A DNA stretch of 64,000 nt, taken from NCBI GenBank assembly GCA_001972305.1, contig BDDD01002867.1, positions 159,599-223,598 on the forward strand. Reading direction: 5' to 3'. Position numbers and translations under genes: made by a program. A model generated the notes under the pieces. The model worked only from the letters and a program-made list of their open reading frames with translations, had not been told where the DNA came from and searched no databases. The DNA comes from Cephalotus follicularis (lineage: Eukaryota > Streptophyta > Magnoliopsida > Oxalidales > Cephalotaceae). Shown one piece after another: positions 620-60,132 of this stretch (positions are counted from its first letter, which is position 1; each line of letters opens with the position of its first letter).

Positions 620-3416
620 TGTGATACCCTGCTTGATCGTATGTGTTTTACAGACTTTTTATGAGTTTGTTTTCGGGCTTTTAAATTTGTTTTATTTTTA
701 AGTCCGGTTGCCCTGTGTTTTGGGCTTATGTGATTTGGGTTGTTTGATACTAGCCTGAATTTTTAGATATGTTTATATGTTAATGTACGTTGGGTTGGGC
801 CTATGTTATGTCATTTTTATTTTTTTATTTTTTTTTATCAAACTTAATTTTACAACTTTCAAAATATTAAAACAATTCCTTTTTATTTTAAAATCCTTTT
901 ATCTTATTTTATTTATTTTCTTTTATTCTTTTCCTTTTCTTTCTTCTTCCTTTCTTTCCTTTCTTTCCTCTCTTCTCCCGAACTCTCTCCTCCCCTCATT
1001 ATTTCTACACGTTTTCAATCCTTTTCTTCCTTAATAATCCGATTCTTGTCTCCTCTTCTTCCTTATTCATCCCTCAAATTACTCTTTCTTTCATGTTTAA
1101 GAATGCCTTGCCATTGTTATGGGTTATCTCCCTCACCTTTGCAAAGCCTGTCACTGCCGAAATTGCAAGTGGAAATTATTGTGTTCTGGTGTTGTTTCAT
1201 TCATCGAAAATCAGGTTGGTTATGTCCTCTCAATCCTATGTTATTTTGTGCTGGGTTATGTCTTTCATTGGATGGCATTAAGGTTGTATTTGGTTTGCAT
1301 TCTTTCCTCTTCTGTTTTGTTCACAGCTGGTTAACAATTGTTCAGTGGTATTCTTTCTGCTCTTTTTCCGTGTTCTTAATACCATTACAGGTTAGTTAAC
1401 TCGTTCCCTACTGTGATGGATTTGCTACAATGTTATAATTCCAGTTTTGTGTTCTTAGTGTCCTTTGGTTTTGATTCCTACATATATATGTTCTGCCATG
1501 GTAATTCTAAGTCTGTCAGCATGTTTTAAACACCCTAAACATGTCATAATCTAGTTTTAAATGTCTGCAAGTGATAATGGATGGAATTTGGACCTGAACA
1601 TATGCATATGCTTAGAGAATTATTTCTTTCTCCTGAAGTTAGACCACTATCTAACTGTTTCCATGTCAATTATGTGTTCCTGTATCATCTAAATGTCATA
1701 TGTGGTCATATGTTTATGTTCTTGTATCTCTGGTTTAATGTCATTTTGTTCAAACTGGTTTCTGCATTAAAATGTCGAAATTCCTGTTGTTCTGTCGTCC
1801 AGAACAGTCGGCTGTTCTTGTGGACAGTCGGCTTGATTGGATGAGTAGTCGACTGCCATATGAAAACAGTCGACTGTCTTTGGTTGTGTAGTCGACTGGA
1901 TCTATGTGACAGTCGACTTCCTACAGTCTGTCTTGTGTAGTCGGTTGGCCCTTGTGATTAGTCGACTGCCAAGCTTCCCCAGTCGGCCGGTGCTCTGTAA
2001 CAGTCGCTGTTTTGCCCATAAAAATTTCTGTTTTAAACTGTTTTGCTTCGTTTGTTCCTCGAATCAATCCGGGTCTTTTCCAAACACTGTTATAAGTCTG
2101 TTAATGTCTCTGATGTTTCTTAGACCCTTATATGAATGGTTTTGGGGTGTCTTTTAGATTGTTGTGATTCAAGGGGAGTTTGATTTAAATCATCTATCCG
2201 TAAGTGCTTTTGTGAACACATAAGATACGGATTTCTATCGTTCCTTGGCTATCTGATTATCGAACTGAAATCAGTTTTATTTAATGCTATGCCTCTTTGT
2301 TTATGAACTTGGTAATGTTTTATGGTTTTGACATGTTTCAAAAATGAAGTTGGTTTTTGACATTTATGAATGATTCCGACTTTATTCATATGATACGAAA
2401 TGATCCGATATGTTATGATCACCTCTTTATAGCGAAGTATAAATGAGTTGATGATTTGACTATGAAATGTATGTTATGATACCGTTGTGAACAATTTTTA
2501 AATATGTTTGTGAAAGCATATTTATGTGTTTTTAAATTGATTTTGATAAATCAATGTTTTCGAAATGATTGAATAATGAGTATTGTACCAACCTATGGGG
2601 CGTACCATAGGCATGTCGTAGGCCTGGCACGGGGACATGACACTTCGGTAGTGGTGTGATTAGTCTATGGCGTCTCTGAATGTTATGAATAAATCCCATG
2701 AGGTGGATTTATGGATCCGCTATGTCATAGAGGCGTATGAATCGATTCTAGTATATGATATGTGATATGATATGTGATATGTGAGAATAGACATGTGTAG
2801 TATCGTACACTTCAATTCTAGTGGGCATGTGGAATTAGCGCTTCCCTTGCCAAATATATGTTATGTGATATGTATGTGGCTCAGTATGACTTATGAATCG
2901 TGAGATGATGTTTTGAAATGTTTCGTAAATGTTTCGAAAGTTATATGGAAATGTTTAATTGTTTTTAATTGCTTAAGATTTCTGTTATAAAATTTTATTG
3001 AGATCTTACTGCTTTTAAATTTATCGTTTACTGTTTTAATTCCCTTATCCGTACTGAGGTTTGCTCAGCCGCGTTTTTGTTTTCCATGCGGCAGGTTATC
3101 AGGAGCAGCAGGGGAATGTGTGAACGAGAGATGACCACCTTATGTTTTGGATCCCTAGGAGTGTGATCCCGTTATGTTTTTATTTTAGTGGTCATGAACA
3201 ATAAGATACTTATGTTTTATGTTTTAAATTTGAAACTTGAATATGTTTTAAGTTTTCCCGGAAATGCTAAATTGTTAAGTTTTTTAGTTTTCAGTTATGC
3301 TATGACCGCCACATTTTTGGCTGATAAGTTATGTTTATGTTCAGATATGTTATGTTATGTTATGATAGATTCTGTATTATGACCTGTGACGACTCCCGCC
3401 GTCCGGGGGTGTTACA
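620..3416 (+). repeat. 3' LTR of element A (about 2.8 kb)
   Basis: Landmarks in order: TGTGATACCC start; a long pyrimidine tract at about 880-1000; the palindrome array at 1804-2010; a block reading CCTATGGGGCGTACCATAGG near 2592; CTCAGCCGCG near 3066; and the GGTGTTACA end. The same landmarks recur in the same order in the LTRs of D, and partly in B, G and Q. No host gene is present; the ORFs here are translations of LTR sequence. Confidence 0.88.
1804..2010 (+). repeat. Phased CAGTCGACTG palindrome array in LTR A
   Basis: About ten copies of CAGTCGACTG or its CAGTCGGCTG variant. The AGTCG cores begin at 1806, 1826, 1847, 1868, 1890, 1911, 1939, 1960, 1981 and 2002. Steps are 20, 21, 21, 22, 21, 28, 21, 21 and 21 bp, with a weak half site at 1925 in the 28-bp step. 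The bases between sites differ from copy to copy. See findings. Confidence 0.9.
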
Positions 3417-3800
3417 AGGCCTATCCACATCCCCAAACAAAACCCTCCGGGTGTGACAGTCAATCGTGGCACGATGGCGATCTAACCAATCCATACCAAG
3501 AATCATGTCGAAGTCATACATATCTATCGGGAAAAGATCCGCATCTCGAACGCGATCATCAAAAGCGATAGGACAAGCACGAAAATATTCAAATATCGCA
3601 ACATATGTCCCCATAGGGGTCGAAAGAACCAAAGCTGGATCCAGAGATAAAGATGGCACCCCAAGATGCCGAACGAAAGACCTCGCTACAACAGAGTGAG
3701 TCGATCCAGTATCATACAAAACATAAGCCATACGAATACAACAAGAAACATAAACCGAAACAGTACCTGGAGCACCTGTTGCCTGATGAGTAATCAAAGC
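3417..3800 (-). pseudogene. Retropepsin-like protease remnant of element B
   Basis: The minus strand encodes an aspartic protease domain: the active-site motif YVLYDTGSTHSVV, a flap region with STPMGTYV, and the downstream DMILGMDWLDRH motif typical of Ty3/gypsy proteases. In life it would cut the Gag-Pol polyprotein. The reading frame runs into the LTR of element A, which interrupts it. Confidence 0.85.
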
Positions 3801-3869
3801 AAAGACTCGGCCACCTATATTGCGCTATCCCGCATCACCGCCATTACCTTTCCTCTCCTTTGCTCGAGG

Positions 3870-4946
3870 ATCTATGCAATCCATAAAATGATGGCCCTGC
3901 TGTCTGCACACAAAGCATGCTCCCGAAGCCTTGTAACAATTCCCAACTGGATGTCTCTTCCCACAAGTCTCGCACTGTGCAATCTGAACATTGGGGTTAC
4001 CCCCACCTGTAGCTCCTTGATTTTGCCTTTGATCATTCCCAGACTGTCCACCTCCTCGGTTATTATTTTTCTTTTGCTGCTTACCATTTCGGCCCTTACC
4101 CTACTGCCCCGAGTTTTGGCCCTGAGAATCTCCCCTATTTCTCTTCTTTTCTCCTTCTAGACGAGCTGCCTGAAAATCCAACCTTTCCATTTCTATGTTT
4201 TTCGCGGCGTTTGCAACCTCCGAAACATCAGCGAACCTCGAGTTGATCAGCTTACCCCTAAGCTGATAGTGCAACTTCCATTTAACCTTTTCTGCCTGCT
4301 CTGCTCCTGATCCCGCTGCAGGTCCTGCAAACCCTGCCAACCTGGTAAACCTGGCTAAAAATTCAGTAATAGATTCACCTTCCTTCTGTCTTGTCATCAC
4401 GAGCTCCCTCGCATAAGCCTCTTTATCAGCAGTGAGGAAATACTGCTGATAAAAGATCTCACAGAAATCAGACCAAGACAAAGTCTCAACAAAACCTACA
4501 CCCTTAGCTGTCTTCAAGGTCTTCCACCATGTCTGGGCATCGCCTTCCAGCTTGTACGCAGCCAACTTAACCTTTTGATCATCGCCACATCCCAGTACAT
4601 CGAAAATCTTCTCCAAATGAGAAATCCAATGCTCAGCCTCCACTGGTGTTGGCGTCGAACTAAAGGATCGCGGTTTCTATTTTTGGAACCTCTCCAACCA
4701 TACATAAACTGGAGTATCAGGATGGTCCCCAGCTCCCCTAGCTACATGAGCATCAACTGGTACATTCTCCTCAGCTACTTGTTCACGACGACCTTGTTCA
4801 TGACTTTGTTGTTGCTGCTGCATTGCTCGGTTCACTTCCTGAGCCACAGCCTGTCTAACCATCTCGTCGATTGCAGGCTCATTTCTTGCTCCATCTTGAG
4901 CCACAACTGGTTCGGTTCTCTGAGGGGTATTCCTTGTTCGTGCCAT
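3870..4946 (-). pseudogene. gag remnant of element B
   Basis: The N-terminal piece begins MARTRNTPQRTEPV and has a glutamine-rich stretch. The central piece carries the retrotransposon gag signature (KLEGDAQTWWKTL, FYQQYF, ITEFLARFTRLAGFAG). A CCHC zinc knuckle is visible nearer the protease at about 3900-3970 (CFVCRQQGHHFMDC). The family makes the capsid and nucleocapsid of the virus-like particle from this region. The coding sequence is broken. Closest relatives in the window are the gags of D and G. Confidence 0.85.
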
Positions 4947-8175: not shown

Positions 8176-8370
8176 GCATAAGCGTCAGTGGTTACATGTT
8201 AAGCGTCGATGCTTAAGTCGACGCATTGTGTAATCTTCCGTGCTTTAAACAAAGCGTCGACAGTTTTCTCAAAACGTCATTGCTAAGTCTTAAGCATCGA
8301 CGGTTTACTCAAACTGTCAGCACTTAGTTCTTAAGCATTGACTGTGTACTCTAAAATGTCGGCGCTTATT
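8176..8370 (-). repeat. Phased AAGCGTCGACGCTT array in the leader of element E
   Basis: Imperfect palindromes around GCGTCGAC. The positions equivalent to the first G of GCGTCG are about 8182, 8203, 8254, 8274, 8294, 8314, 8335 and 8356, with steps mostly 20-21 bp. Further degenerate sites run to about 8450. Variants such as AAGCATCGAC and TGTCAGC look like decayed CpG sites. Confidence 0.8.
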
Positions 8371-10467: not shown

Positions 10468-13239
10468 TGTAACACCCCCGGACGGCAGGAGTCGTCACAG
10501 GCCATAATACAGAATCTATCATAACATAACATAACATATCTGAACATAAACATAACTTATCAGCCAAAAATGTGGCGGTCATAGCATAACTGAAAATTTA
10601 AAAACTTAACAATTTCAGATAACTTTAACATAATCCAGTTCAAAACTAAAACATATGTATCTTATTGTTCATGACCACTAAAAGAAAACATAATGGGATC
10701 ACACTCCTAGGGACCCAAAACTTAAGGTGGTCATCTCTCGTTCACACATTCGCCCGCTACTCCTGATAACATGCCGCATGGAAAACAAAAACGCGACTGA
10801 GAAAACCTCAGTACGGATAAGGAAATTAAAACAATAGACGATAAATTTTAAAAGCAGTAAGATTTCAATAAACTTTGTAATAGAAATCTTAAGCAATTAT
10901 AAACAATTAAATATCCGTAAAGTCACATTTGTACTTTCATAAAATCCATATAACTTTCGAAACATTTACGAAACATTTCAAAACATCATATCACAATTCA
11001 TAAGTCATACTGAGCCACATCCATATCACATAACATATATTTGGCAAGGGAGGCACTAATTCCACATGCCCACTAGAATTGAAGAGTACGACACTAGACA
11101 AGTCAATTCTCACATATCACATATCATATACTAGAATCGATTCATACGCCTCTATCACATAGCGGATCCATAAATCCACCTCATGGGATTTATTCATAAC
11201 ACTCAAAGACGCCGTAGACTAATCACACCGCTACGAAAGTGTCATGTCCCCGTGCCAGGCCCACGACATGCCTATGGTATACCCCATAGGTGGGTACAAT
11301 ACTCAGTATTCAATCATTTCAAAAATATTGATTTATCAAAATCAATTTAAAAACACATACATATGCTTTTATAAAACATATTTGAAAATCGTTCACAACG
11401 GTATCATAACATACATTTCATAGCCAAATCATCAGCTCATTTATACTTCGATATAAAGAGGTGATCATAACATATCGTAACATATCGTCTCGTATAAATA
11501 AAGTCGGAAACATTCATAAATGTCAAAAACCCAATTTCATTTTTGAAACATGTCAAAACCATAAAACATTACCAAGTTCATAAACGAAGGGGCATAGCAT
11601 AAAACAAAATTGATTTCAGTTCGAAAATCATATAGCCAAGGAACGATAGAAATCCGTACCTTATGCGTTCGCAAAAGCACTTACGGATAAATGATTTAAA
11701 TCAAACTCCCCTTGAAGCACAACAATCCAAAAGACACCCAAAAACCATTCATATAAGGGTCAAAGAAACACCAGAGACATTAAACAGACTTACAACAGTG
11801 TTTGGAAAAGACCCGGATCGATTCGAGGAACAAACAAATCAAAACAGTTGAAAACATCACTTTTCTGGGCAAAACAGCTGACTGTTACAGAGCACCAGCC
11901 GACTGGGGAAGCTTGGCAGTCGACTAATCACAAGGGCCAGCCGACTACACAAGACAGACTGCAGGCAGTCGACTGTCACATAGATCCAGTCGACTACACA
12001 ACCCAAGACAGTCGACTGTGTTCATATGGCAGTCGACTACTCATCCAATCCAGCCGACTGTCCACAAGAACAACCGACTTTTCTGGACGACAGAACAGCA
12101 GAATCTTGAAATTTTAATGCAGAAACTGGTTTAAACAAAAATGACATTAAACCAGAGACACAAGAACATAAACATATGACCATACATGACGTTTAGATGA
12201 TACAGGAACACATAATTGACATGAAAACAGTTAGACAGTGGTCTGACTTCAAGAGAAAGAAATAATTCTCTAAGCATATGCATATGTTCAGGTCCAAATT
12301 CCATCCATTATCACATTACAGACATTTAAAACCATATTATGACATGTTTAGGGCGTTTAAAACATGCTGACAGGCTTAATAACACAATGATAAAACATAT
12401 AGGCAAGAATCAAGACCAAAGGACACTAAGGATACTAACAGCAAAACCAAAGACAAAGTGAAACAATCATTACAGTGAAATCACTAACCTGCAATGACTA
12501 TCCAGAATCCAGAAAACACAGCAAGAATACCACAAATTCACTTGTCAGACGGCTGTTTGCATGAACAAGGAAAAGAAAACAAGGGGACACATAAACATCC
12601 TTAACAAACTAAAGGAATTCAACCCAATGAAACAACCAAAGGATTGAAATTACCTCTCCAAACTTGAGGAAATGATTACACAGCTGATTACACAGGCTTC
12701 TCTATGCAGAATCGGCAGTGAAAGCAAGAGAAACGAATGGCTCATCACAAACCTTTAGCATTCTTAAAACATGAAGGAAAAGAGTGAATTACGGGATAGA
12801 TAAGGAATAAAGGGGGACAAAAATCGGATTAATATGGAAAGGGAAGATTGAAAACGCGTGGGATTCATGAAGGGATGAGAGAGCTTCGGGAGAGGGGAGG
12901 AGAAGAAAGGAAAGAAAGAAAAAAAGAAGAAGAAAAGAAAAAGGAAAATAAATAAAATAAATAAAATAAATGAAATGAAATGAAATGAAAAAAAAGGATT
13001 TTAAAATAAAAAAATGAATTGTTTTAATAAAATAATTTTTTTTTTGATTAAATAAGATAAAAACCCCAAACCCAACATTGCATTAACACATCCAAAATTC
13101 AGACTGGTATCAGTCAGCCCAAATCACATAGGCCCAAAACATAGGGCAACCGGACTTTTAAAATTAACAAAATTAAAAGCCCGAAAACAAACACATAAAA
13201 AGTCCATAAAACACATTTACGAACAGACAGGGTATTACA
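10468..13239 (-). repeat. 3' LTR of element D (about 2.77 kb)
   Basis: On the plus strand it starts TGTAACACCCCCGGACGG and ends GACAGGGTATTACA. A pyrimidine-rich purine-tract complement (CCACCCCCCCTAAAAAAAGG) follows at 13241. It is the same family as LTR A. The long reading frames inside (for example 11663-12117) are array translations, not genes. Confidence 0.9.
11874..12080 (-). repeat. Phased CAGTCGACTG array in the 3' LTR of D
   Basis: GACT of each site begins at 11880, 11901, 11922, 11943, 11971, 11992, 12014, 12035, 12056 and 12076. Steps are 21, 21, 21, 28, 21, 22, 21, 21 and 20. This is the mirror of the spacing in LTR A, including the single 28-bp step with a half site in it, as expected of the same family on the other strand. 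Confidence 0.9.
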
Positions 13240-16284: not shown

Positions 16285-18094
16285 TGTAACACCCCCGGAC
16301 GGCGGGAGTCATCACAGGCCATAATATAGAATCTATCATAACATAACATAACATATCTGAACATAAACATAACTTATTAGCCAAAAACGTGGCGGTCATA
16401 GCATAACTAAAAATTTAAAAACTTAACAATTTCAGATAACTTTAACATAATCCAGTTCAAAACTAAAACATATGTATCTTATTGTTCAAGACCACTAAAC
16501 AGAAAACATAATGGGATCACACTCCTAGGGACCCAAAACTTAAGGTGGTCATCTCTCGTTCACACATTGCCCCGCTGCTCCTGATAACCTGCCGCATGGA
16601 AAACAAAAACGCGGCTGAGCAAACCTCAGTAGGGATAAGGGAATTAAAACAGTAAACGATAAATTTTAAAAGCAGTAAGATTTCAATAAACTTTGTAATA
16701 GAAATCTTAAGCAATTAAAAACAATTAAATATCCGTAAAGTCACATTTGTACTTTCATAAAATCCATATAACTTTCGAAACATTTCAAAATATCATATCA
16801 CAATTCATAAGTCATACTGAGCCACATCCATATCACATAACATATATTTGGCAAAGGAGACGCTAATTCCACATGCCCACTAGAATTGAAGTGTACGGTA
16901 CTACACAAGTCAAATCTCACATATCACATATCATATACTAGAATCGATTCATACGCCTTTATCACATAGCGGATCCATAAATTCACCCCATGAGATTTAT
17001 TCATAACACTCAGAGACGCCGTAGACTAATCACACCGCTACGGAAGTGTCATGACCCCGTGCCACGCCTACGACATGCCTATGGTACGCCCATAGGTGGG
17101 TACAATACTAAGTATTCAATCATTTCAAAAATATTGATTTATCAAAATCAATTTAAAAACACATAAATATGCTTTCACAAAACATATTTGAAAATCGTTC
17201 ACAATGGTATCATAACATATATTTCATAGCCAAATCATCAACTCATTTATACTTCGCTATAAAGAGGTGAGCATAACATATTGTAACATATCATATCATA
17301 TAAATAAAGTCAGAAACATTCATAAATGTCAAAAACCAACTTCATTTTTGAAACATGTCAAAACCATAAAACATTACCAAGTTCATAAACGAATAGGCAT
17401 AGCATAAAACAAAACTGATTTCAGTTCAAAAATCAGATAGCCAAGGAACGATAGAAATACGTACCTTATGCGTTCGCAAAAGCACTTACAGATAGATGAT
17501 TTAAATCAAACTCCCCTTGAAGCATAATAATCTAAAAGACACCCAAAACCATTCATATAAGGGTCAAAGAAACATCAGAGACATTAAACAGACTTACAAC
17601 AGTGTTTGGAAAAGAGCCGGATCGATTCGAGTAACAAACAAATCAAAACAGTTGAAAACAACACTTTTCTGGGCAAAACAACTGACTGTTACAGAGCACC
17701 AGCCGACTGGGGAAGCTTGGCAGTTGACTAATCACAAGGGCCAGCCGACTACACAAGACAGACTGCAGGCAGTCGACTGTCACATAGATCCAGTCGACTA
17801 CACAACCCAAGACAGTCGACTGTGTTCATATGGCAGTCGACTACTCATCCAATCCAGCCGACTGTCCACAAGAACAGCCGACTATTCTGGACGACAGAAC
17901 AACAGAATCTTGACATTTTAATGCAGAAACTGGTTTAAACGAAAATGACATTAAACCAGAGACACAAGAACATTAACATATGACCATACATGACGTTTAG
18001 ATGATACAGGAACACATAATTGACATGAAAACAGTTAGACAGTGGTCTAAGTTCAAGAGAAAGAAATAATTCTCTAAGCATATGCATATGTTCA
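16285..18094 (-). repeat. 5' LTR of element D, first piece
   Basis: It starts TGTAACACCCCCGGACGG next to a decayed Met-type primer site at about 16273-16283. It matches 10468 onward to the base where solo LTR F begins; the last five bases, GTTCA, are the duplicated target of F. The rest of this LTR is at 29748-30695. Confidence 0.9.
17680..17890 (-). repeat. Phased CAGTCGACTG array in the 5' LTR of D
   Basis: This is the partner copy of the array at 11874-12080, with the same order and spacing of about ten sites. A few bases differ between the two, including one core base (CAGTTGACTA for CAGTCGACTA near 17721). Confidence 0.88.
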
Positions 18095-19100: not shown

Positions 19101-19820
19101 AATCACGATAACAATGCAATCACTGCACACACACAAACCACTCAAGTAGTTTATAAAATAAATACTTGATCAAAACATCTCGTTCAAAACATTGTAGTTC
19201 GTTTCCAAAACGTTTAAAGTATAAATACTTACAACATATATATATTTGTCAAAATATATATATAACACTCCATTTTCCCAAGTAAATTATGCTTCATAAA
19301 ATACATGCAACAATACATTTTCCTTCCAACATTTTCAAGTAATTTATAGATATAAATACTTGCAACATATATATTTGTCAAAATATATATAACAAAACTT
19401 TTCCCGAAAACTCAAGTATCAAAGTACTTGGAATCATACACTTTCCGTAAAACCCGGTTATTTGAACTACATTCAAATACCTCAAAAATACGTACTTCGT
19501 ATAACAGTTTCGCAATCCCTTGAAAGCCATTTTCGCAATCCTTTTGGAAAACATACTTTTTCCGTACAACAAATGATTTTAGTAAACCATTCCATTAACC
19601 AAACACACTTTCACAAGGTTTTGGAAGCCATTTTCACAATCTTTCGAGAATATATATATATCTCAAAACGTACGTTTCACATAAAGTAATGATTTATAGA
19701 AATCATGTTTGCACCTCCAAAAGGGGTAAAACGTTTCACAATCATCAATAACCAATTCACAATACAGTTTATCACGGTACAAGATGAACACATATGCTCA
19801 CAATGCAAAATAGTCCCAAC

Positions 19821-20000
19821 CAGTCAGCTGTTTCTCACTGACAATCGGCTGTTCTCCTTCAACAGTCGGCTGTCCCTTACTTGGCAGTCGGCTGCCCTCC
19901 TTGGCAGTCGGCTGTCCTTGACCAACAGTCGGCTGCCCTCCTTGGTAGTTGACTGGTCCCTCAATTAGCAATCGGCTGCCCTCTCCAGGCAGCCTGCTGG
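19821..20000 (-). repeat. Phased CAGTCGGCTG array in LTR F, block 1
   Basis: Sites start at about 19821, 19842, 19863, 19885, 19905, 19926, 19946, 19969 and 19990. Steps are 21, 21, 22, 20, 21, 20, 23 and 21. Element G was inserted nine bases after the last site, and block 2 lies on the other side of G. Confidence 0.88.
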
Positions 20001-20008
20001 TCCATACA

Positions 20009-20423: not shown

Positions 20424-20428
20424 GTTTA

Positions 20429-22435: not shown

Positions 22436-22572
22436 TGCTCAAAGACGTCGATGCCTTTCAAAAAGACGTCGACTCCTATGCAATGTGGCACTAAAACACA
22501 TCGATGCTTTCTAAAAGACAACGACGTTTTTATCAGGGATATGCGTCGATGTCTTTCTAAAAGACGTCAACG
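22436..22572 (-). repeat. Paired GACGTCGAC palindrome array in H, block 1
   Basis: Three pairs of sites: 22444 and 22465; 22497 and 22517; 22542 and 22563. Within-pair steps are 20-21 bp, and pair starts are 53 and 45 bp apart. Confidence 0.82.
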
Positions 22573-23199
22573 CCTTCTGGCTAGTAAAGCACAAAAAGTC
22601 TAACTCCTTTAGTGTTCTCATGTCACTTTCAAATATTGGTTAAGTAAGATTAAACATATGTGTTTCCACTTGAGCCCAAAGTCATTGCAAGGTCTTCCTA
22701 GGTGTAAGGATATAAATCTATTTATTACAACATTAACCATGCATACATGGCCTTCAAAATCTTGTACTTCATTTCTCCTTTCCTCCATCTCTCCTTGCAT
22801 AGTCTTCTTTTACAAAAAGAGCAATACATTTTCGAAAAGAAATTTACATTTAAAATTATAAGGAGAAATAACAAAAATAAGGAAAAATAAATGGTGCACG
22901 TAGGCACCTTATTACAGACCTTTAAAGATAATAAATAAATTAAAATCCATCCACACTTAGAAAAACATAAACTAGGTCTATGTCCTTTTCGGGCCATCCA
23001 TTGTGCATAAGATATATATTATATCTAATATAATAAAACAACAAAATAAAACAAATGCCATATATGATAACCAATTACACAATTTAATTCAATGATTGTT
23101 AATTGATCAAACTCCCACTAAATCAAGCAATGATTTTAATCTTCCAAGTGCCAAAATGTATAAAATCCAATTTTATACAAAAACAGTTTTTTTTTTTAT

Positions 23200-23500
23200 A
23201 AAAGACGTCGACGCCTTACCAAAGCTATTGACGTGTTTTCTGGAAAAGCATGAACAAGGCATCAATGCCTAAAACAGAGCATCAATGCGTTTTTCCCCTA
23301 GGGTTGAAAAGGCGTCGACGTCTACCATAAACATCGACGCGTTTTAGAAAGTATGATCCAGACATCAACGTCTATAACGAACATCGACGTCTTTAATGGG
23401 AATTTGACATGACATCGACGTCTTACCAAAAACGTCGACGTCTATCCTGGAAATAGCACATGACATCGACGTCTACAATAAGACATCGACGTCTTTTGCC
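23200..23500 (-). repeat. Paired GACATCGACGTC palindrome array in H, block 2
   Basis: Six pairs: 23204/23224, 23258/23278, 23311/23330, 23361/23380, 23411/23431 and 23462/23482. Within-pair step is 19-20 bp, and pair starts are 54, 53, 50, 50 and 51 bp apart. This is the most regular example of the two-site unit in the window. Confidence 0.88.
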
Positions 23501-26166: not shown

Positions 26167-28684
26167 TCAGTTATATTATTATTATTATTAATTCCATAAA
26201 TCAATTTTGAAAGCCTTTTTAAAATACCATCTTTTGTTTTTAATCTTTCCTTTTCTTTCTTTTTCCTTTTCTTTTATTTCCTCTCAAATTCTCTCTCCCT
26301 CTCACGACATCTCTTCCTCTCAAACTCTCTCTCCCGAATTCTCTCCTTCCATCATAATTTTTACACGGCAATAATCCCCTCCTTCCATATCAATATGATT
26401 TTGTCTCATTGTTTCCTTATTCTTTCCCCAATTTCCTCTTCTTTTCCGTTTTGGATTATGTTGCTATATATGTGTGTCAAGCCTTCGTTTCTGCCATATC
26501 TCCTTGCTGCCGAACCTGCCATTGGAAGAGTCACTGTCTTCTTTGTGTTCTTGCTTCATTAAACAGGTTAGTTCTTCATGATTTCTACATAGGAATCGTC
26601 CTTGGCAATATTGGTATTGTTGGCAGGCTTGAATTTTTATGTTTTCCTTTCGTTTTGTTTTGATCATCTATTGTGTCATTCGTATTGGTGTTCCTACAAT
26701 CATTTTTGACATCCAATAGGTTGGTTTTCTACATTGTTATGCCTTAGTGATTTGTTTTTGGATCATTGTCATCAAAACTATGAACTTTGGTTGCTAGAGA
26801 TGAATTTAATTATGGTTTCCGCATCCTTGTTCTTCTGTCAAGTAACTATGTGTTAGCAGCCATCTGTAGACATCTAGGAATCGATATACAATCTGGCTTG
26901 ATGCATGTAATGGTGATAGTGGACAGAATTGGATTAAATGTTAGTATGCAATGGTTTAAAGTCCCTGTCACATTGAAAGAATTTTCTGTCAACATGCTTA
27001 TGTCGAATTCTGTGTTGTAACAATGTTTGACATGTCATATGAAGTTGTTTTACATGTTGGAAACCTTCTAGTGTCGAAAATTCCAAGTCTTGGTTGCTAA
27101 AATTGCACAAACTGCACTGAACTGCTGTTCTGATACCCAGAACAGTCGACTGTCCATATGAACAAGTCGACTGTCTAGTTGAGTAGTCGACTGGACCCCT
27201 GATCCAGTCCACTATCTGCAAGTCCAGGTTGAGTAGTCGACTGGCCTTGTTGTGTAGTCGACTGCCACCCATTGTTAGTTGACTGGATTCTTCAAACAGT
27301 CGGCTGGTTTGTCCTGTAAACTTCTGTTTTCATCCGTTTATTCTTCCGATGATCCGGGTTTATTTGTAAACATCATTATGATTCTGTTTTATGCCCAAAA
27401 CGAATTTTAGACCCTTATATGAATGTTTTCATATTGTTTAGATTATTGTGCTACGTGAAGCAAAATAAATTTACCGGCTATTCGTAAGCTTATCTGTGAT
27501 CGCGCAAGGTACGGATTCTTCGTTCCTTGACACATTCTTACTGTTTCGGTTCTGTTTGAGATTAAATACAGATTCTGGTTTTGTTATCACTCGGTTTTAT
27601 GAATATGCTTCCTTTTGGTTTATGAATTCCGTATATTTGGATTTTTGGAAATAAAGTCATTTGATATTTTAAGAAGTAAATATTCTGACTTTATGAAATC
27701 TGTTATGATGTATTTACGAAATGATATGCAATCATCTCTTTATTGTGAAATTAAATGAGTTGGTTTTCTGATTATGAAAGTAAGTGAAACTATATCGTTT
27801 GAGCACGATTTATGGTAATGGTTTGGGAAACGTTTTTATTTGAAAATGATTTTGATGAAATCATATTTTTGGAAATGGTGAAATACTGAGATTTTATAAC
27901 CACCTATGGGGGTACCATAGGCATGCTGTGAGCCTGACACGGGGGCATGACACTTTCCATAACGGTGTGATCGTTTACGGCGTCTCTCAGGGATATCCGT
28001 ATATCGGATTTGGGATAGAGGCGTATGGATCGATCCTAGTTATATGTTATTGGGATATGTTTTGGGATATGGGAATTGTATGTGTAGTGCCGTATACTGA
28101 AATTCCATTTGGCAACGTGGGTGTCGCGAACCCCTTGCTACTATATGATATGTTTTGGGTTTTGGTGCTCAATTTATTGATCCTATGTTTTGGAAAGGTA
28201 CACTTTATGGTTTATATGTTTTGCCGTCAGCATTTATAAAACATGTTTAAATTATTTTATTGCTTAAGATTTCAGTTTTAATGTACTTTTGGAAATCTTC
28301 CTGCTTTAAAATATTGTCTATTGTTTTATACTCTATATCCGTACTGAGGTTTGCTCAGCCGCGTTTTTGTTTCCATGTGGCAGGTTATCAGGAGCAAAGG
28401 GGCAATGTGTGATGAGAGTGACTCCCATATGTCTGAGGATCGTCTAGTAGCTGATCCTTTTATGTTATGTGGTCATAGTGGAACCCGATAATTAAACAAT
28501 GTGTTATTTCAGTTTATGACTTTTGGATTTTGAATAAGCTTCAGTTTATGATCAGTTTTTATATGTTTTGGTTATGCTTTAAACCATCACGTTTTTAATA
28601 AAGATGAATGTTTTTAATATGATATGTTCTGTTTAGTTTCGGTATTATGCACTGTGGCTACTCCCACAGATCGGGGGTGTTACA
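26167..28684 (+). repeat. 3' LTR region of element G
   Basis: A pyrimidine tract (about 26230-26350), the palindrome array, the CCTATGGGGGTACCATAGG block (27903) and CTCAGCCGCG (28356) follow in the same order as in LTR A. It ends GATCGGGGGTGTTACA. The inner edge is approximate. Confidence 0.8.
27140..27310 (+). repeat. Phased CAGTCGACTG array in LTR G
   Basis: Sites start at about 27144, 27165, 27184, 27205, 27234, 27255, 27276 and 27297. Steps are 21, 19, 21, 29, 21, 21 and 21. The single long step falls in the middle, as in LTRs A and D, which suggests a shared origin for this array. Confidence 0.87.
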
Positions 28685-28754
28685 ATACACATTCCTTTGT
28701 CGCAACTTGTCCCAGCATGCCACCTCAGTAAGCCCGGGTAGAGTGACACGTGGA

Positions 28755-28972
28755 CAGTCGGCTGTTACCCAAAACAGTCGGCTGTCCCACCCACAGTCGG
28801 CTGCCTTCCTCTGGCAGCCGGCTACTCAATCAACAGCAAGCAACCTGCAACACCAGGCACGAAGTCGACTGGCTCCCATGCGCAGTCGGCTGTGCTCTAT
28901 GGGTATTCGGCTGTTCCTCACGAACAGTCGACTGCTGGCCTCGGACAGTCGACTGCCCCTGCGGGCAGTGCC
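28755..28972 (-). repeat. Phased CAGTCGGCTG array in LTR F, block 2
   Basis: Sites start at about 28755, 28775, 28794, 28815, 28834, 28862, 28883, 28904, 28925, 28946 and 28966. Steps are 19-21 bp with one of 28. Both GTCGGC and GTCGAC cores occur. Confidence 0.87.
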
Positions 28973-36749: not shown

Positions 36750-37080
36750 ATTCGCGTCAACGTGCATCACCTAAGTGTTAACGTCCAAAATAGTCACTTA
36801 AGTGTCACCGTCTAACCCTAGGCATCGATTCTTATGTTCCCTAAGCGTCGACGCTTTAACCTTTAGCGTCCACGCTTAAACCCGTAGTGTTACACATCAA
36901 GAACGTGTCTCTTGGCGTCGACGCTCAAGGCATGGACCCTTAATTCTTTTGAGTCGGCGCATAAATCTTTTGCGTCGACGCTTCGAAGTAGGAACCTCAA
37001 TCGTCAATGCTCTTATCGTTCATTTCCTCATCCAACAGTTCAAGGCGTTGACGCTTTTATCTTAAGCGTCGACAGTTAAG
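36750..37080 (-). repeat. Phased AAGCGTCGACGCTT array in LTR I, block 1
   Basis: Sites equivalent to GCGTCG start at about 36754, 36775, 36802, 36822, 36845, 36866, 36887, 36915, 36951, 36972, 37001, 37045 and 37066. Many steps are 20-23 bp, with others of 27-29 or longer. Full palindromes such as AAGCGTCGACGCTTT (36844) mix with decayed ones (GTGTTAACG, GTCAACG). Confidence 0.83.
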
Positions 37081-40207: not shown

Positions 40208-40405
40208 TCTGTCAGTGTTTTAACTTACTCTGCCGACAGTCTTAAGTGTCGCCGGTTATACCATTAGCGTCAACACTTTGCCCTGTGTATGCATTGGTGT
40301 CGACGTCATCTATTTTCTTCGAGGCTTTGAGCGCATGAGTCTTAAGCGTGCATTCCGTTCCCGTGGCGTCAACGCTTTACTTCATAGCGTCGGCGCTTTG
40401 GGATG
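40208..40405 (-). repeat. AAGCGTCGACGCTT array in LTR I, block 3
   Basis: Sites at about 40246, 40267, 40297, 40346, 40366 and 40387, with steps of 21, 30, 49, 20 and 21 bp. It continues block 2 on the other side of copia LTR U. Confidence 0.78.
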
Positions 40406-44035: not shown

Positions 44036-44640
44036 AAGACATCGACGCCATTGAAGGAAGACATCGACGCCTTTAAAGCACCAGGAGTTATAGGTTGTTA
44101 TTCATGAAAGACATCGATCTCATTCTCAAAAGGCATCGACGTCTTCAGCCTCAAAAGTTACAAGTCGATTTTCAACAAAGACATCGATCCCTTTCAAAGA
44201 AGACATCGACGTCTTTAGCACAGAAAGTTACAGGCTGTTTTCATTCGAAGGCATCGATCTTTTTCAGTGAAGACATCGACGGTTTAACTCAATGACATAG
44301 ATCCCTTCACAAAGACATTGATGTGTTTAATGCTTCAAAGTTACAGGTTATTTCTGAACAAAGACATCGAGTATTTCCTATGAAGACATCGACTCCAAAC
44401 TAAAAGACATCGATCCCTTGTCAAAGACATCGATGTGTTTCTCATAACTTCTATTTTTCCAGAAAAGACATCAATGCAGTTTGAAGACATCGATGTGTTT
44501 CTCATATCTTCAAAGCCAGGCGACAACTACAGAAAAGACATCGACGCCATTTATAGACATTGACGTCTTCACACAAAATTACGCCCTGAATGCTAGCAAC
44601 GGCTAGTGAACTGATGAAGACATCGACGGCTTTTCTCCAA
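44036..44640 (+). repeat. Paired GACATCGACGTC array in the LTR of J
   Basis: Sites (G of GACATCG) near 44038/44060, 44110/44132, 44180/44202, 44250/44272/44294/44314, 44363/44385/44406/44426, 44467/44486, 44537/44556 and 44618. Within-pair step is 19-22 bp; several pair starts are 70-72 bp apart. The first site of a pair often reads GACATCGATC and the second GACATCGACGTCTTT. It takes up about half of the LTR. Confidence 0.9.
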
Positions 44641-44728
44641 CGGCTACATAACAGAGTTTACAGCATGTCATCAGATTTTCTAAAATCAAACTCCACGATT
44701 TAAGCAACGGATACAAAGATTATTTGGC

Positions 44729-44736
44729 TATATAAA
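44729..44736 (+). promoter_or_regulatory. Likely TATA box of the J LTR
   Basis: CTATATAAAGG lies in the LTR about 90 bp after the last array site. It is a good plant TATA match, and its place after the array suits a layout with upstream sites followed by a core promoter. No transcript evidence is available. Confidence 0.5.
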
Positions 44737-45072
44737 GGAGGAACCAAGCCTTCAGAAAATATCAATAAGCAAAGTAATCAAGTAATCAAGCAAGCTACAT
44801 TCTACAATACCAAAGTGCTCTTAAGCTTCTCCAAAAGCTTCATAGCTTTACTTTCTGAATTCCTTTGTTATTCTTTCTGGTGTTTTTCATTGTGAGCCAA
44901 ATCAAACCTATTGAGAGGTTAGATTGTAAACACTATCTAAACACTTGTAAAAGAGGAGAGTGAATCCTACAAAGGTCTTGAAGTCAAGATCAAGTGATTG
45001 AGGTCAATCACAAAAACTTTAAAATTTTCTATTTGTTAGTATTTGTGGTAATATTACTCTCTTTACTTTGAA

Positions 45073-45940
45073 ATGACCATGATGGGAGAGCTCAACTTCT
45101 TCCTTGGGCTTCAATTTAAGAAAACGAAAGAGGGTATCTTCATCAACCAAGCTAAATACATAAAGGAAATACTCAAGAAGTTTGGAATGGAGAACTCAAA
45201 AACAAGTAAGACTCCTATAAGCACTTCTACAAAGCTTGACAAGGACGAACAAGGTAAAAATGTTGATCAAAAGCTTTATAGAAGCATGATAGGTTCACTA
45301 TTATATTTAACTACTAGTAGACCTGATATTTTGTTTTGTGTTTGTTTGTGTGCACGCTTTCAATCAAACCCTAAAGAATCACACTTGTTTTCGGTTAAAC
45401 ATATTCTGAAATACCTTGCTTATACACCTACTTTAGGTTTATGGTATTCACGAGGCTCTAGTTTTGATTTACATGCATACTCAGATGCTGACTTTGGTGG
45501 TTATAAGGTTGATCGCAATAGCACTAGTGGCTCATGCCAATACCTAGGAAGTATGCTTGTATCTTGGTTTAGCAAAAAGCAAAATTATGTTGCTCTTTCT
45601 ACCACCGAGGCAGAATATATTGCTGTAGGTAGCTGTTGTGCACAAATCTTGTGGCAAAAACAACAGATGATAGATTATGGTGTTTTTGTAAAAAATGTAC
45701 CTATAAAGTGTGATAATACTAGTAGTATTTGTCTTGCTAAAAACCCTGTTCATCACTCAAAGACAAAACATATTGATATTAGGTATCACTTTTTGAGAGA
45801 ACATGTTGAAAATGAAGATAATGAATTAGAATATGTTTCCACCGAAAAACAAGTAGCTGATCTTTACCAAACCTTTAGATGAAAATACTTTTTCAAAGTT
45901 TAGAAGAGAACTAGGTTTATGTGAGTTTGAATGAATGTTT
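45073..45940 (+). pseudogene. Copia reverse transcriptase end and RNase H remnant of element J
   Basis: Contains MMGELNFFLGLQ, FINQAKYIKEILKKFGM, LYRSMIGSLLYLTTSRPDI, the RNase H acidic motif AYSDADFGG, SGSCQYLGSMLVSWFSKKQ, ALSTTEAEYIA, and the closing KTKHIDIRYHFLREHV. These are in the usual order for the C-terminal part of copia Pol. The gene is partial and broken. It is of a different copia lineage from fragment P. Confidence 0.9.
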
Positions 45941-46035: not shown

Positions 46036-46300
46036 AAAACACGTCGACTTCTTTTCAAACACATTGATGTAGTTTTTGTAAAAAACGTCGATCTCTTTAT
46101 AAAACGTCGATGTTCTTTAGTTTTTATAAAACACATCGATCTCTTTAAAAATACGTCGATGCTTTTCAAAACGCAACGTTTTATTTCACATCGATGCTTT
46201 TCATTAAGTTTTTTTAACGAACACATCGACGCTTTTAAAATCACGTCGACGTCTTTCTATCAGTCATCGACTTATTCATAAAAACACATCGACTCTATTT
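46036..46300 (+). repeat. ACGTCGATG-type array between pol and the envelope-like ORF of J
   Basis: Sites such as ACGTCGAC, ACATCGATC and ACGTCGATG start at about 46041, 46061, 46085, 46104, 46133, 46153, 46171, 46188, 46223, 46243, 46263 and 46285. Most steps are 18-24 bp. It is a second array in the same element, of the same class as that in its LTR but with T-rich spacers. Confidence 0.82.
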
Positions 46301-46492
46301 ATATTTTCACTTTACCTCTCTGGACAATTTCTCTGGAAAAAAAATTTTCTTTCTATTTTTTTTTAATCTTTCTAGTCATCAAAACATCATCTACTCCATC
46401 TTTTTTCGTGATCAAGGTTTAGTGTCTTCCACCAATCTCTGTTTTCTTCCTGTTTTTATATTTTCTTTTGTGCATTCCAACTGTTCGATAAA

Positions 46493-47194
46493 ATGACTAA
46501 GACAAAACGTGCTGGTAAAAAGAGGGCTGCTAGCTCCTCCAAGAAAGAGAAATCTTCTTCAAAACGGAAGCTTAATATTCGGGAACCTTCTCCCGATCCT
46601 GCTGTTGAATCGGATTTCGAATCCGAGGAAATCGTTCCCCTCCAAAGTGCTATTTTTGTTGATAAAAGAGTAATGGGAGGTAGGAACATAGACTTATCTT
46701 TTTGTTCAAATGAATTTGCTTTCGTTTGTTGGCTAGATAATTTGCATCTTCTTCCCCTTGTGCAAATCCAAGATTTATTTTATGTTAAGCTTGTCAAAGA
46801 GTTTTATATGAATTTACGTATTGTTTCAAGTCCACATGAAGAATTCGCCCTGTCTTCCATCGTTAAAGGCCAAAGAATCTTCCTAGATGCTAGGATTCTT
46901 GCCTCGATTCTTCATATTCCTCATACCGGCTTGTATATTTTCGAATACAAGAAGTGGCCGGAAGTTGAGGGATTCCACCCAAATGACATTTTGTCAATCC
47001 TTTACCCAAATGATCCAAATATTCATCCTAATATAACTCTTTGTACAAATAGACTTTCTGTCGATCATCGTCTCTTACACCATCTTATTGTTCACCAGCT
47101 ACTTCCTACCGGTTGTGGATATGCAAAACTCACTAGGATGCAAGCATTTTTAATGTGGTGTATCATTACCAAAATCGAATTTTGCTATCCATAG
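46493..47194 (+). pseudogene. Envelope-like ORF remnant of Sirevirus-like element J
   Basis: A 233-residue open frame. It has a lysine and serine-rich N-terminus (KTKRAGKKRAASSSKKEK), an acidic stretch, then a globular part with LVKEFYMNLRI, SSIVKGQRIFLD, ILHIPHTGLYIFE and DHRLLHHLIVHQLLP. This matches the pattern of the plant transposon protein found after pol in Sireviruses and some gypsy elements. An envelope role in that family is suggested by position only and is unproven; I see no clear signal peptide or membrane segment. It is a fossil. Confidence 0.72.
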
Positions 47195-47846: not shown

Positions 47847-48799
47847 GATTGTATTTTTCTTATTTTGCTAAACAGTATATATTTTGGTTGTGTAACTATG
47901 AACAAATGGTTGAAATGTGAACAAGTGTTTATGATGTGTATGATATTTTTGAGGTTGTTTGAATGTTATTGCTGTTATTGATGATATTTTGTTATGATTT
48001 TTTGTTATATGATTTTTTGTTCAAATATTGACTTTTTAAGGGGGAGCATTATTTTTTTTTTACATCTCTTTTTGATGCTATCCAAAAAAGGGGGAGATAG
48101 CTTTAAAAAAATGAAATGAAAATGTTGTATGGTTATGTAAGTTTGTACTAAGTTTTCATTCAAACTTATTACTTATCCTTTTCACCTACTTATCCTTCAT
48201 TTTTTTTTATTATGCGCACAAATTTTTGTCATCATCAAAAAGGGGAAGATTGTTGACATTTTAGTCTCAATCCTAGTTTTGATGATAACATATTTGCTTT
48301 TAACAAGTTTACTTTATGTGCAAGATACTTGAAAAACTCACAAAATGCAAAAAGACAGTTTCACATGAAAGGCATCGACGCCATTGAAGGAAGAAATTTT
48401 ATATTGCAAGAAATTTTGGATCACATACAGGAGTGCAGCAGATAAGTATGACATATAAGAGATGAATGCATGACAATCGATATAAACCATGCTATGAGAA
48501 CTAGCATTTAGAACCATGCCATTTCAATAGTAGCCACAGTTCAACAACCATATCCATACGATTCCAACACAATTCCATTATCATTGGGCATCCATATCAT
48601 TCCAAAGTCCTTTCAAAGCATATACAAGCTTTTGTCGACCTTCCTTGCCGAGGTAACAGACTAGACACTTTTGGCGTTCTAGGAAGAGGTCCTTATTACA
48701 CTGGAAGACTAGAGTAGCATTCGTAAGTAGAACAGAGATGAGAAGAGGGACCTTCTCTAACACTGGTCTCCCTAGCCACTGCCACCATCAATATCCATA

Positions 48800-50149: not shown

Positions 50150-50270
50150 AGAGTACTAAGCATCGGCTAGTTTAGTTTAAAAGCGTAAAGTGTCGACTAT
50201 TCAGTTTAACACACAAAAGAGTCGACAGTTAAGAAGAAAGCGTCGACGGTTTTAGCAGAAATATCGTTTT
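50150..50270 (-). repeat. Short GCGTCGAC palindrome array in LTR K
   Basis: Sites with TCG cores near 50162, 50192, 50221 and 50242 (TGTCGACTA, AGTCGACAG, AGCGTCGACGG). Steps are about 30, 29 and 21 bp. A small, decayed array of the same class as in E and I. Confidence 0.7.
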
Positions 50271-56190: not shown

Positions 56191-58225
56191 TGTAACGACC
56201 CCGACCCGAGCCCGCTAATTTCTCGAAGCAAACCTCGAGGAATCGGTTGCGTTACGTGGGGTGAACCGTTACATTCTTTAGCGCTCTTGTCTAAAGCTAA
56301 TTTACATCATAAATCCCATGCATTTCAACATAATACATAGCCTTGAATATCGATTTTAAACATTCTCATCTTATCTAAAGATGTCATCAACCATAACATT
56401 CTTATACATTTACACAGGATCATCATATAATACAGCGAAAAAACGTAGTCTTATTACATGTCAAAACATTTATGCAAACACCATTGCATTGTATATTTCC
56501 TTTACAAAACTTCTTCTTAAGAGATCCCTCTAAAGCTCGCATTCTCCATTCAATCATTTCCTGAAAACATTTAATTTGAAAACAAACATCGAAAGGAATG
56601 AGCTCAAAATAGCTCAGTAAGGTTTTCATTGCAAAACACATTTCATCATATCACTTTTCTAGTTAAAATTCATAACTAGAACATTTCGTAAAACATATCT
56701 CTTTTCTAGTCAAAATTCGTAACTAGAACATTTCGTAAAAAAATAATATAGAAGCCATAAAAACTTAATGAACCCTTTCACACCTCTTCAACTGGGCATT
56801 TTGCACTCCCCGATTACTAGCCTTACATCACATGCATGTTCGTGAGCATCTCGCTCCATTAACATTAATACATCTCAGATTCGTTCCCCTTGGATCGCAA
56901 TCCAATGATGGTTCATTCATCATTTCATAAAACATTTCCTTAATACTTTGAGTGATCAGATCAAAGCATTTATAAACATCATTGTATAACATTTCTTTCA
57001 CAATTCATAAACATTTCTCTTAATTTAAATAATTAACTCAAATGCTTTCATAAAATAGCTTTGCATAGCATTTCTAAAACTGATAATTCATATAGAAATA
57101 AGCATTTTCAGAAGAAACTTAAAACATAAACATTAAAGTAGATATCTTCATGAATTCAAAAAGATCAAGTTCATGAAAATTTGTTGAGAATGGAATCCAT
57201 TATGAATTTTTAAAGTCAATACTTCTATATGAAAACAGGACATGAACAGTAAAATGAAACATGGATTCTCATCAATAATTAGACAGAATTTCGAGAAGCA
57301 TAAAACATATCAGTTAAAGAAGACATCTTGAAGTTTCTAAAACATCAAACCATTTGAAATTTCATCAAGAATTGAGGAAGATGTGAATAAAATAATCTGC
57401 TACATAATTTGGAAGTAAAGCAGAGGAACTTTGATAAAAATGGGTATGGAATTTCCTTACTTTGCTTTAGATTTCCTTTCTTTCTTCTCTACATGAATTC
57501 TCCTCTTTACTCTCAGCAGTAAGCACTCCTTTCTTAGCCAAAATGACTGAATTCAGCCAACACTTGACCATAAATATGTTGAGTTACTTAGGGAGTAAGT
57601 TTCTCCCTCTCTCACTCATGAGTCATCTCTCATAAATGCCCATGTGCCTTAAATCCACGAATCAAATAGTGATACATAGCATCTCAACATAAAATATCTG
57701 GCTTCCTTTCACCCTAGTCCGACACTTGTCCCATAATTAATAAAATTAATCCACAAAAGGACAAAAAGTCAGATTTTGGCAACTGGTCTGCAGATCAAAG
57801 CGTCGGCGCTTCATTTCAAGCGTCGCCGCTTTACGGGCTTGTTCTAAGCTTGCCAAAAGGTACGCAGGGCAAAGCGTCGGCACTTAATTCCAAGCGTCGC
57901 TGCTTTCGGGCCTCGTCCAGGTCAACATGACATTGGTTCTTCAAACGTCGTCGGCTGAACTTGAAGCACTGACGCTTAACTTCAAAGCATCGCCGCTTTC
58001 ACTGAAGCGTCATCGGCTAGAGGACTTTGTCCAAATTGAAAATTCCCTGGTTTTAACCGACGTTAGAAGAGGTCCAAGCGTCATCTGTTTACTACCCAAG
58101 CGTCGCCGCTTAACCTCACACCGTCGGCGCTTTAGTATCACAGGTCCCTTGAAATATTTGCCAACTTCAACTATAGCAATCATATTCCATAGATAATATC
58201 TCTAATGAAAATTATGGTCATTACA
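56191..58225 (-). mobile_element. Element R: solo LTR (about 2.0 kb) in Q
   Basis: Ends TGTAACGACCCCGACCC and TGGTCATTACA, with the duplication AACAT at 56186-56190 and 58226-58230. There is no coding sequence and no primer site, so it is a clean solo LTR. It has a palindrome array near its minus-strand start (right side). Confidence 0.9.
57795..58135 (-). repeat. Paired AAGCGTCGGCGCTT array in solo LTR R
   Basis: Sites (G of GCGTCG) at about 57800/57820, 57874/57894, 57945/57966/57987/58007 and 58078/58100/58121. Within-group steps are 20-22 bp; group starts are 71-74 bp apart at first. GTCGGC and GTCGCC cores dominate here, unlike the GTCGAC of LTR I. Confidence 0.87.
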
Positions 58226-59255: not shown

Positions 59256-59262
59256 TATATAA
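59256..59262 (+). promoter_or_regulatory. Likely TATA box of LTR S
   Basis: GACTATATAAGTC is followed 15-70 bp later by a CT-rich tract, a common arrangement at plant LTR transcription starts. Prediction only. Confidence 0.4.
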
Positions 59263-59785
59263 GTCAATATCCTCCCCATTTTCTCTCATTTTTTCCCCAC
59301 CATCTCCCTCTCTCTACCTTCCTCCTCCTCTATCTTAGCTAGACAACCTCCAACCTTCTTCTAGCAGCTCCGGTTTGGCTTCTTCCATCAACAAGATAGC
59401 AACTGCAAGCTGTGGCTTACCAATTGAACAAGAAAGGAGAGGATTCTTGGGAATTTCCAGCCTTGGATCAATTGTTGCTCAATTGTTGAAGCTGCTATTA
59501 TAGGTAGGACTTCTTACTTGAATTACCTACAATTTGTATTGATTGATTGATTGAAATGTATGATTGAATGAATGTATTTAGTGAATTGTAGGTTTTAGGG
59601 TTTTTATTTAATCCTTGACCAAATTGATATAGAGAATGATAGAAATTGTAATTTGAAGGTAGTAACTTGACTTACTAACCTTAAATGATTGTTTTTAACA
59701 CTTGGTTTTCAAAGAATGGGTTTTAAAGGGTTTTTAACCTGAGATTTGGCTATTTTTTCTGCATAAAAATCGACCCTACCCGTCA

Positions 59786-60132
59786 AAGACATCGATCCCT
59801 AGCCCATAGACATCGATGTCTTTTGCTTGAAATGCCGCATATTTAGTTTCTGCAGCAAAGACATCAATGTCTTTCAAAGACATCGACATCTTTGCCCAGG
59901 ATTTCTCTTATTTGAGAAGGACATCGATGACGAACATCGATGCACATTTACAGGTTATTTTTAATGAAACGCGTCGACGCTTTTTCCAAAAGACATCGAC
60001 GACTTTAAGCCAGATATTTATACAAATAGAGAAATACATCGATGTCTTTCAAAGACATCGATATCCTTCTACAGTTTTAAAGAAGTGCCCTGAAATGCAT
60101 CGACATCTTTCACCAAAGACATCGACGCCTTC
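59786..60132 (+). repeat. Paired GACATCGATGTC array in LTR S
   Basis: Pairs near 59788/59809, 59860/59879, 59920/59933, 59969/59992, 60035/60054 and 60096/60118. Most within-pair steps are 19-23 bp, and pair starts are 49-72 bp apart. One site reads GCGTCGACGC (59971), a class-two arm inside a class-three array. Confidence 0.85.

Follow-up and report, generated by a model that had tools for sequence, protein, structure and literature searches.

A 64-kb stretch of the Cephalotus follicularis genome (contig BDDD01002867.1, forward-strand positions 159,599 to 223,598; hereafter the window, from which all statistics are drawn) is a nest of plant long terminal repeat (LTR) retroelements that carry arrays of short palindromes, with neighbouring sites frequently 19-22 bp, or about two helical turns, apart. 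The palindromes share a TCGA-type core and a few classes of arm across several elements: two Tekay-type insertions (E1 and T), a partial element of the same type (A), a solo LTR (S), a non-autonomous LTR element (N), a copia element and a Sirevirus-type remnant at 43.9-48.4 kb. The Tekay/Del and Sirevirus labels are provisional, assigned from domains, LTR ends and polypurine tracts (PPTs) rather than from a reverse transcriptase (RT) tree. We think it rather likely that the arrays are enhancer-type (upstream activating) sites to which putative host DNA-binding proteins would bind and so activate transcription.

Palindromic sites, their spacing and their position

Perfect palindromes with a TCGA core numbered 61 at 8 bp or longer, compared to 11.9 in dinucleotide shuffles (mean of 20, in 500-bp blocks), with 27 compared to 2.6 at 10 bp or longer and 7 compared to 0.55 at 12 bp or longer. 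An earlier, sequence-only reading of the window had described clusters of such palindromes, and these are borne out. The other large palindrome excesses in the window have ATAT and TATA centres. The most frequent non-AT palindromic 8-mers, AGTCGACT (24 copies), CATCGATG (11) and CGTCGACG (10), are close to the three arm classes proposed in that reading, but the core is looser than TCGA: the AG....CT frame holds 24 TCGA, 16 TCGG, 7 CCGA and 1 CCGG, and TCGC cores occur as well. Six seeds representing the arm classes identified 114 sites, compared to a mean of 12.0 and a maximum of 21 in 100 shuffles. A class-free palindrome scan gave a weaker signal because many right arms are degenerate: its 78 sites compare to 29.7 in 60 shuffles, and its 6 steps at 19-23 bp to 0.08. 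Under lenient counting, eight or more sites were found in the 44/46 kb element (19+11), the E1 LTRs (10 and 9), S (7+8+6), N (11+6), A (8), the 57.8 kb array (8) and the 59.8 kb array (11); lower counts were found in T (7), the copia leader (4), the 50 kb group (3) and the groups at 36.8, 38 and 40 kb (6, 4 and 4).

Consecutive steps between the 114 seed sites fell 45 times at 19-22 bp, twice at 1-18 bp, never at 23-27 bp and seven times at 28-40 bp, and none of 100 shuffles produced a step at 19-22 bp, so that the spacing is clearly tighter than in shuffled sequence. As shuffling destroys the sites themselves, we added a random-placement test that kept the site number and span of each array, with ends fixed and a minimum gap of 12 bp (4000 simulations). 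Steps of 19-22 bp made up 40 of 77, compared to 8.3 under random placement (standard deviation 2.6, maximum 20). This count omits LTR copy C as well as two groups with fewer than three seeds, at 40 kb and 50 kb, and its A, E1 and T arrays, being homologous, are not independent. Of 16 tested groups, 11 reached a nominal P below 0.05 (10 of 15 if C is left out); those that did not were the 59.8 kb array (0.06), the internal N array (0.11) and three groups with P = 1.0, at 36.8 kb, at 38 kb and in the copia leader. The lenient site list, again without C, placed 70 of 116 steps at 19-22 bp and none at 9-18 bp, and at 36.8 kb and 40 kb alike it contributed two pairs 21 bp apart. Sites are frequently paired about 21 bp apart with longer gaps separating the pairs, and by our grouping such 19-22 bp pairs occur in 10 of 11 array-bearing insertions. 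The two-turn step had been proposed for every array; the copia leader (8207-8360, steps 51, 40 and 62) and the sites at 38.4-38.8 kb (steps 193, 107 and 125) are unphased.

Four LTRs place their array shortly ahead of a TATA-type block. The distance from array end to the block ACCCTTATATGAA is 118 bp in A, 123 bp in B (E1) and 114 bp in T, the block is invariant in four aligned LTRs, and the promoter-like block GACCCTTATATGAATG of A recurs near 11760 (minus), 17564 (minus) and 27411 (plus). The 44 kb array likewise ends ahead of TATATAAAGG, at 104 bp.

Core conservation and competing explanations

The LTR families of A/E1 and T have diverged yet can be aligned, which allows cores and spacers to be compared. 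Over the array stretch present in T, B (E1) and T show 5 differences among the 64 positions of the 8-bp cores and 37 among the other 100; for A and T the figures are 9 of 64 and 40 of 100. Across all array columns B and T differ at 16 of 78 core and 52 of 125 other positions, and at 127 of 294 downstream of the array. None of 168 circular shifts of the core mask matched the core identity of 0.922 (best 0.906). Between the two LTRs of E1, which were identical at insertion, cores differ at 3 of 80 positions and the rest at 1 of 128, so cores were unprotected there. Being kept between families but unprotected within this one insertion, the cores point to constraint on the active lineage and not on the dead copy, and conservation beyond the spacers is what protein binding, as suggested in the sequence-only reading, leads one to expect.

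In the mechanism we propose, a host protein that binds DNA sequence-specifically would recognise each short palindrome as one site, and repeats of about two turns would align adjacent proteins along a single face of the helix and so raise occupancy. Occupancy would then drive transcription, or shield it from silencing, at the TATA box some 100-120 bp downstream, whereas the 46 kb linker array would instead serve a promoter ahead of the second open reading frame (ORF). Arrays would expand as single sites or small groups of sites are duplicated locally, after which spacers would drift while selection would retain the cores for as long as the lineage is active. The arm classes (CAG, GCG, GAC(A/G) and CAC(A/G)) probably correspond to members of one host protein family, or to shifts in preference, and unrelated elements would have come to use common classes. 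The cores resemble the site of a DREB/CBF-type factor, which is a conceivable but purely speculative candidate.

Several observations weigh against this mechanism. The sites had been placed on one helix face, which fits the narrow two-turn step, but the 42 longer steps (24-110 bp) are weakly periodic (R = 0.30 at 10.5 bp, nominal p 0.023; R = 0.31 at 10.0 bp and 0.33 at 11.0 bp; the steps are not independent) and many are duplication-related, so we do not claim phasing past the two-turn step. A scan for TATA-type boxes found none in the 500 bp next to the arrays at 46 kb and 57.8 kb, such boxes elsewhere lie at other distances or in AT-rich runs, and a location outside the LTRs is seen for the copia leader sites, for the two arrays of N and for that at 46 kb. 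The repeated motif may also pull the family alignment into register and inflate the contrast between cores and spacers; the register itself is supported by a shared non-site word, CCATATGAA. Half-sites in the 44 kb LTR are unequal (10.9 bits on the left, 5.1 on the right), so the reader may not be the symmetric dimer that had been suggested throughout. Finally, spacers, which had been described as varying, are more similar than shuffled spacers (P 0.010 or less) in eight of nine arrays tested among 18 groups in all, although for the 16-18 bp classes this similarity is partly that of the palindrome's own outer bases, and part of the regular step may therefore be history.

Taken to its limit, this last point would make the arrays mostly decayed tandem repeats, with a 20-22 or 40-70 bp unit copied by slippage or template switching and with incidental palindromy, which we regard as unlikely. 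Tandem units of 70 bp (44031-44281), 42-43 bp (19821-19983) and 40 bp (8252-8360), short two-copy units of 19-22 bp at 36941, 44036, 46123 and 59856, and steps alternating between 20 and 31 bp at 23335-23487 are all in keeping with it, and the tandem units and spacer similarity together indicate that local duplication feeds the arrays. Decay leaves unexplained why unrelated elements have palindromes with similar cores and arm classes, and why cores are retained against diverging spacers between LTR families, and the arrays of A, E1 and T gave no tandem-repeat row at the default score. Descent from a single ancestral tandem repeat, which the sequence-only reading had named as the finding that would overturn it, thus applies in part within arrays and not across them, because arm classes and elements differ, and because LTR A and the LTR ending at 55206 resemble each other on the U5 side but the arrays placed with them have different arms.

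We also give little credence to a role for the palindromes as RNA or single-strand hairpin modules that would pair with one another once transcribed and thereby supply small-RNA production or packaging of the RNA, as has been proposed for the palindrome-rich LTRs of maize Sireviruses. Two arrays fold far better than their shuffles (1800-2015, z = -5.3; 59780-60135, z = -9.5; no shuffle as good for either) and the 44 kb array somewhat better (44030-44640, z = -2.9, 1 of 20 shuffles as good), compared to z = 0.3 for a flank control (2100-2400), and the accessible text of two maize studies (PMC5311732, PMC10760457) reports small RNAs on such palindromes. Any group of similar palindromes will fold well as a side effect, however, and the array at 57.8 kb, whose pairs are likewise 20-21 bp apart, hardly outdoes its shuffles (z = -1.0, with 10 of 100 as good). 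Among nine arrays tested, arm pairing exceeded that of column-shuffled arrays in one (P = 0.009; the rest 0.147-0.989), so that compensatory pairing is absent in eight, which is what reading of half-sites by protein, rather than their pairing in RNA, would predict, and hairpins leave the fixed step of 19-22 bp unexplained. A protein-read half-site on double-stranded DNA fits the whole set better, with hairpins a possible option for some arrays. Very unlikely, in our view, is an anti-silencing or insulator function in which a bound protein would strip or block methylation, on the model of VANC and VANDAL elements: clusters of short motifs in non-coding stretches typify that system, the sites bear CpG and five arrays have an observed/expected CpG ratio of 1.18-3.16 against 0.67 for the window, but four CAG-class arrays measure 0.42-0.70, about the window value or less, and no element-encoded candidate protein was noticed, a VANC-like gene not having been searched for.

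The sequence-only reading had the arrays gained many times by many separate carriers, and several unrelated elements do carry them, but several of the arrays it listed share one LTR or insertion: E1 carries the arrays at 11.9 and 17.8 kb, one in each LTR, and those at 19.8, 28.8 and 29.5 kb lie in one solo LTR, S, cut by a later insertion. Homology among the CAG-arm LTRs of A, E1 and T leaves it uncertain how many gains were independent. A speculative extension, which we consider rather unlikely, is that in this one host gypsy chromoviruses, a Sirevirus and a non-autonomous element independently took up one grammar of TCGA-type core, shared arm classes and two-turn step, with the classes read by paralogues of a host family and switched within lineages in a kind of arms race over access to promoters. 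The GCG arms at 57.8 kb, set against the CAG arms of LTRs that are alike on the U5 side, are a candidate switch if that array belongs there. Our results suggest that much of the host's retroelement load may be read by a single family of its proteins, and sharp motifs are now at hand for tracing the binding factor.

Carrier elements and their nesting

Pfam matches in the window comprise gypsy gag, integrase, copia gag and RT domains, with a chromodomain match for the gypsy carriers at 24.0 bits, just short of the cut-off of 25.1; Rfam gave 0 matches at gathering score. We derived the nesting order from self-comparison, LTR ends and flanks. E1 lies on the minus strand with target duplication GTATA, and its 5' LTR (30695-29743 plus about 18094-16285) is split by S (minus, 29742 to about 18095, target duplication GTTCA). 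Inside S lies T (20009-28684, plus, target duplication ATACA), which in turn contains N (21699-24346, minus), with 553-bp LTRs of 97.6% identity and a primer site, TGGTATCAGAGC, at 23792 on the minus strand. The interval 16285-30695 is thus nested four deep, with a non-autonomous element in a Tekay-type element in a solo LTR in a Tekay-type LTR. Beside the nest, only the 3' end of A is present, reaching its LTR end, GGGGGTGTTACA, at 3416; its integrase C-terminus match (45-563) is 87% identical to the E1 counterpart, and we take A to be a chromovirus of Tekay/Del type. The copia element has its gag at 6.3-6.8 kb. A 28-bp unit at 32094-32268 (6.4 copies) with GGTCA...TGACC inverted half-sites forms a palindromic tandem array that has no TCGA core.

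LTR-like stretches occupy 36-41, 50-52, 55-58 and 59-60 kb. The sites at 36.8, 38.4-38.8 and 40.2-40.4 kb were treated as one LTR-side region that lies beyond an integrase end (41123-40608, minus, 51% to that of E1), a grouping of ours that is tentative. The 57.8 kb array apparently lies in a minus-strand LTR ending at 55206, judged by position only, the LTR start not having been located; the U5-side stretch 55979-56189 of that LTR matches LTR A at 79.7% over 217 bp. Within 57804-58125, TCGG and TCGC often occur one each per 20-21 bp pair, so that exact palindromy is repeatedly broken in the same way.

In the Sirevirus-type remnant, the 44 kb array begins about 120 bp inside the LTR. The best organism-named relative of its RT-RNaseH, among the 120 of 7928 matches listed, belongs to Cephalotus follicularis (87% identity, 82% query coverage). 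Between the 5' LTR and the RT end (43920-45052) there was no sign of a primer site, gag, protease or integrase, and an internal deletion has apparently joined the two. The family Transposase_32, matched by the ORF beyond the RT remnant, is described in Pfam as a 'putative plant transposon protein' and may partly consist of Sirevirus env-like genes.

Table 1. Palindrome arrays and associated features, by position in the window
Feature	Coordinates	Strand	Details
CAG-arm array (ACAGTCGRCTGT), A 3' LTR (ends 3416)	1804..2010	+	steps 20,21,21,22,21,49,21
Promoter-like block GACCCTTATATGAATG	2123..2138	+	about 118 bp beyond A array
GCG-arm sites, copia leader, unphased	8200..8365	-	primer-like site 8560; gag_2 ORF 6817-6308
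CAG-arm array, E1 3' LTR (13239-10468)	11870..12080	-	10 sites
CAG-arm array as in 3' LTR, E1 5' LTR	17680..17885	-	9 sites
CAG-arm array part 1, S	19820..19995	-	
GACA/GACG-arm sites near N 3' LTR	22440..22575	-	
GACG/GACA-arm array, N leader	23200..23495	-	second half alternates steps 19-20 and 31
CAG-arm array, T 3' LTR	27140..27310	+	
CAG-arm array part 2, S	28750..28960	-	parted from part 1 by insertion T
CAG-arm sites part 3, S	29340..29600	-	
GCG-arm sites (AAGCGTCGACGCTT)	36840..37080		two 21-bp pairs
GCG-arm sites	40250..40391		two more pairs, 21 bp each
GACA-arm array (AAAGACATCGAYGTCTTT), 5' LTR, Sirevirus-type element	44036..44632	+	19 sites
TATA box (CTATATAAAGG)	44728..44738	+	104 bp beyond 44 kb array
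copia RT-RNaseH remnant (RVT_2)	45052..45879	+	
ACAC-arm array (AAACACRTCGAYGTKTTT)	46037..46298	+	11 sites; between pol and next ORF
ORF, Pfam Transposase_32	46412..47191	+	at Sirevirus env-like gene position
Three PPT-like copies	48038..48252	+	ahead of truncated 3' LTR (48253-48397)
Three sites	50190..50250	-	steps 29, 21; past gypsy LTR-start pattern at 51878 (minus)
GCG-arm array	57800..58130	-	mostly TCGG/TCGC cores
GACA-arm array, LTR-like stretch	59785..60132		11 sites; pattern TGTAACACCCC at 59037

Relation to known motif arrays

Clusters of short motifs that vary by family and lie in non-coding parts of mobile elements are bound by VANC in VANDAL elements, where VANC is encoded by the DNA transposon itself. 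The arrays described here differ in that no VANC-type gene is known to us in these retroelements, although no search was made for one. Closer are the palindrome clusters of maize (PMC10760457, PMC5311732), which also lie in LTR regulatory regions. The accessible text of PMC10760457 describes cis-regulatory regions of several element families as arrays of sometimes palindromic repeats and reports the maize repeated motif (RM) in a second order, Helitrons. Those clusters are read in the accessible text as small-RNA-drawing hairpins, whereas arm statistics and one poorly folding array argue otherwise here. A palindrome nesting preference (PMC6911290) was considered as a parallel and set aside, since the accessible part concerns insertion targets and not LTR arrays. 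In the accessible part of a Retand survey (PMC11963269) palindromes appear only in the reference list, and the literature matches listed, which cover few subscription papers, include no description of TCGA-core arrays in gypsy elements.

The sequence-only reading knew of no family description that includes such arrays, which is wrong for the kind: Sireviruses have them as RM boxes (Bousios 2010, PMC2829016). The accessible text of that paper describes high-copy symmetric motifs in LTRs upstream of the TATA box, starting 200-400 bp into the LTR, and again upstream of env in env-bearing Sireviruses, often as CpG islands. RMs are there called Sirevirus-specific and absent from classic Ty1/copia, with a CGG-CCG signature except in Tnd-1, and no common binding factor is named; TCGA occurs in 2 of 13 published RMs, Tnd-1 ACAATCGATTGT and Vitis CGGTCGACCG. 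The 43.9-48.4 kb element resembles this description: it combines the LTR cluster with a TATA box, three PPT-like copies and a second cluster that may correspond to the one ahead of env, and its RVT_2 domain together with those copies would fit a Sirevirus carrier. Elements with eight or more copies of a symmetric motif are present in the window, LTR clusters lie shortly upstream of TATA in the 44 kb, A, B and T LTRs, and 11 sites lie between pol and an ORF that matches Transposase_32 and is at most a candidate env-like gene.

The arrays differ from the accessible RM description in that most carriers here are Ty3/gypsy elements, together with one solo LTR and one non-autonomous element, in the TCGA-type core (CCGG occurs once in the AG....CT frame, compared to 24 TCGA) and in a measured step of 19-22 bp. 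The arrays of the gypsy carriers are not Sirevirus RM boxes by descent, since those carriers have a gypsy gag and a chromodomain match near the cut-off. What is new, set against the accessible literature, is an RM-box architecture with a TCGA-type core, cross-lineage arm classes and a two-turn step in Ty3/gypsy, solo LTR and non-autonomous elements, alongside a Sirevirus-type element in one genome.

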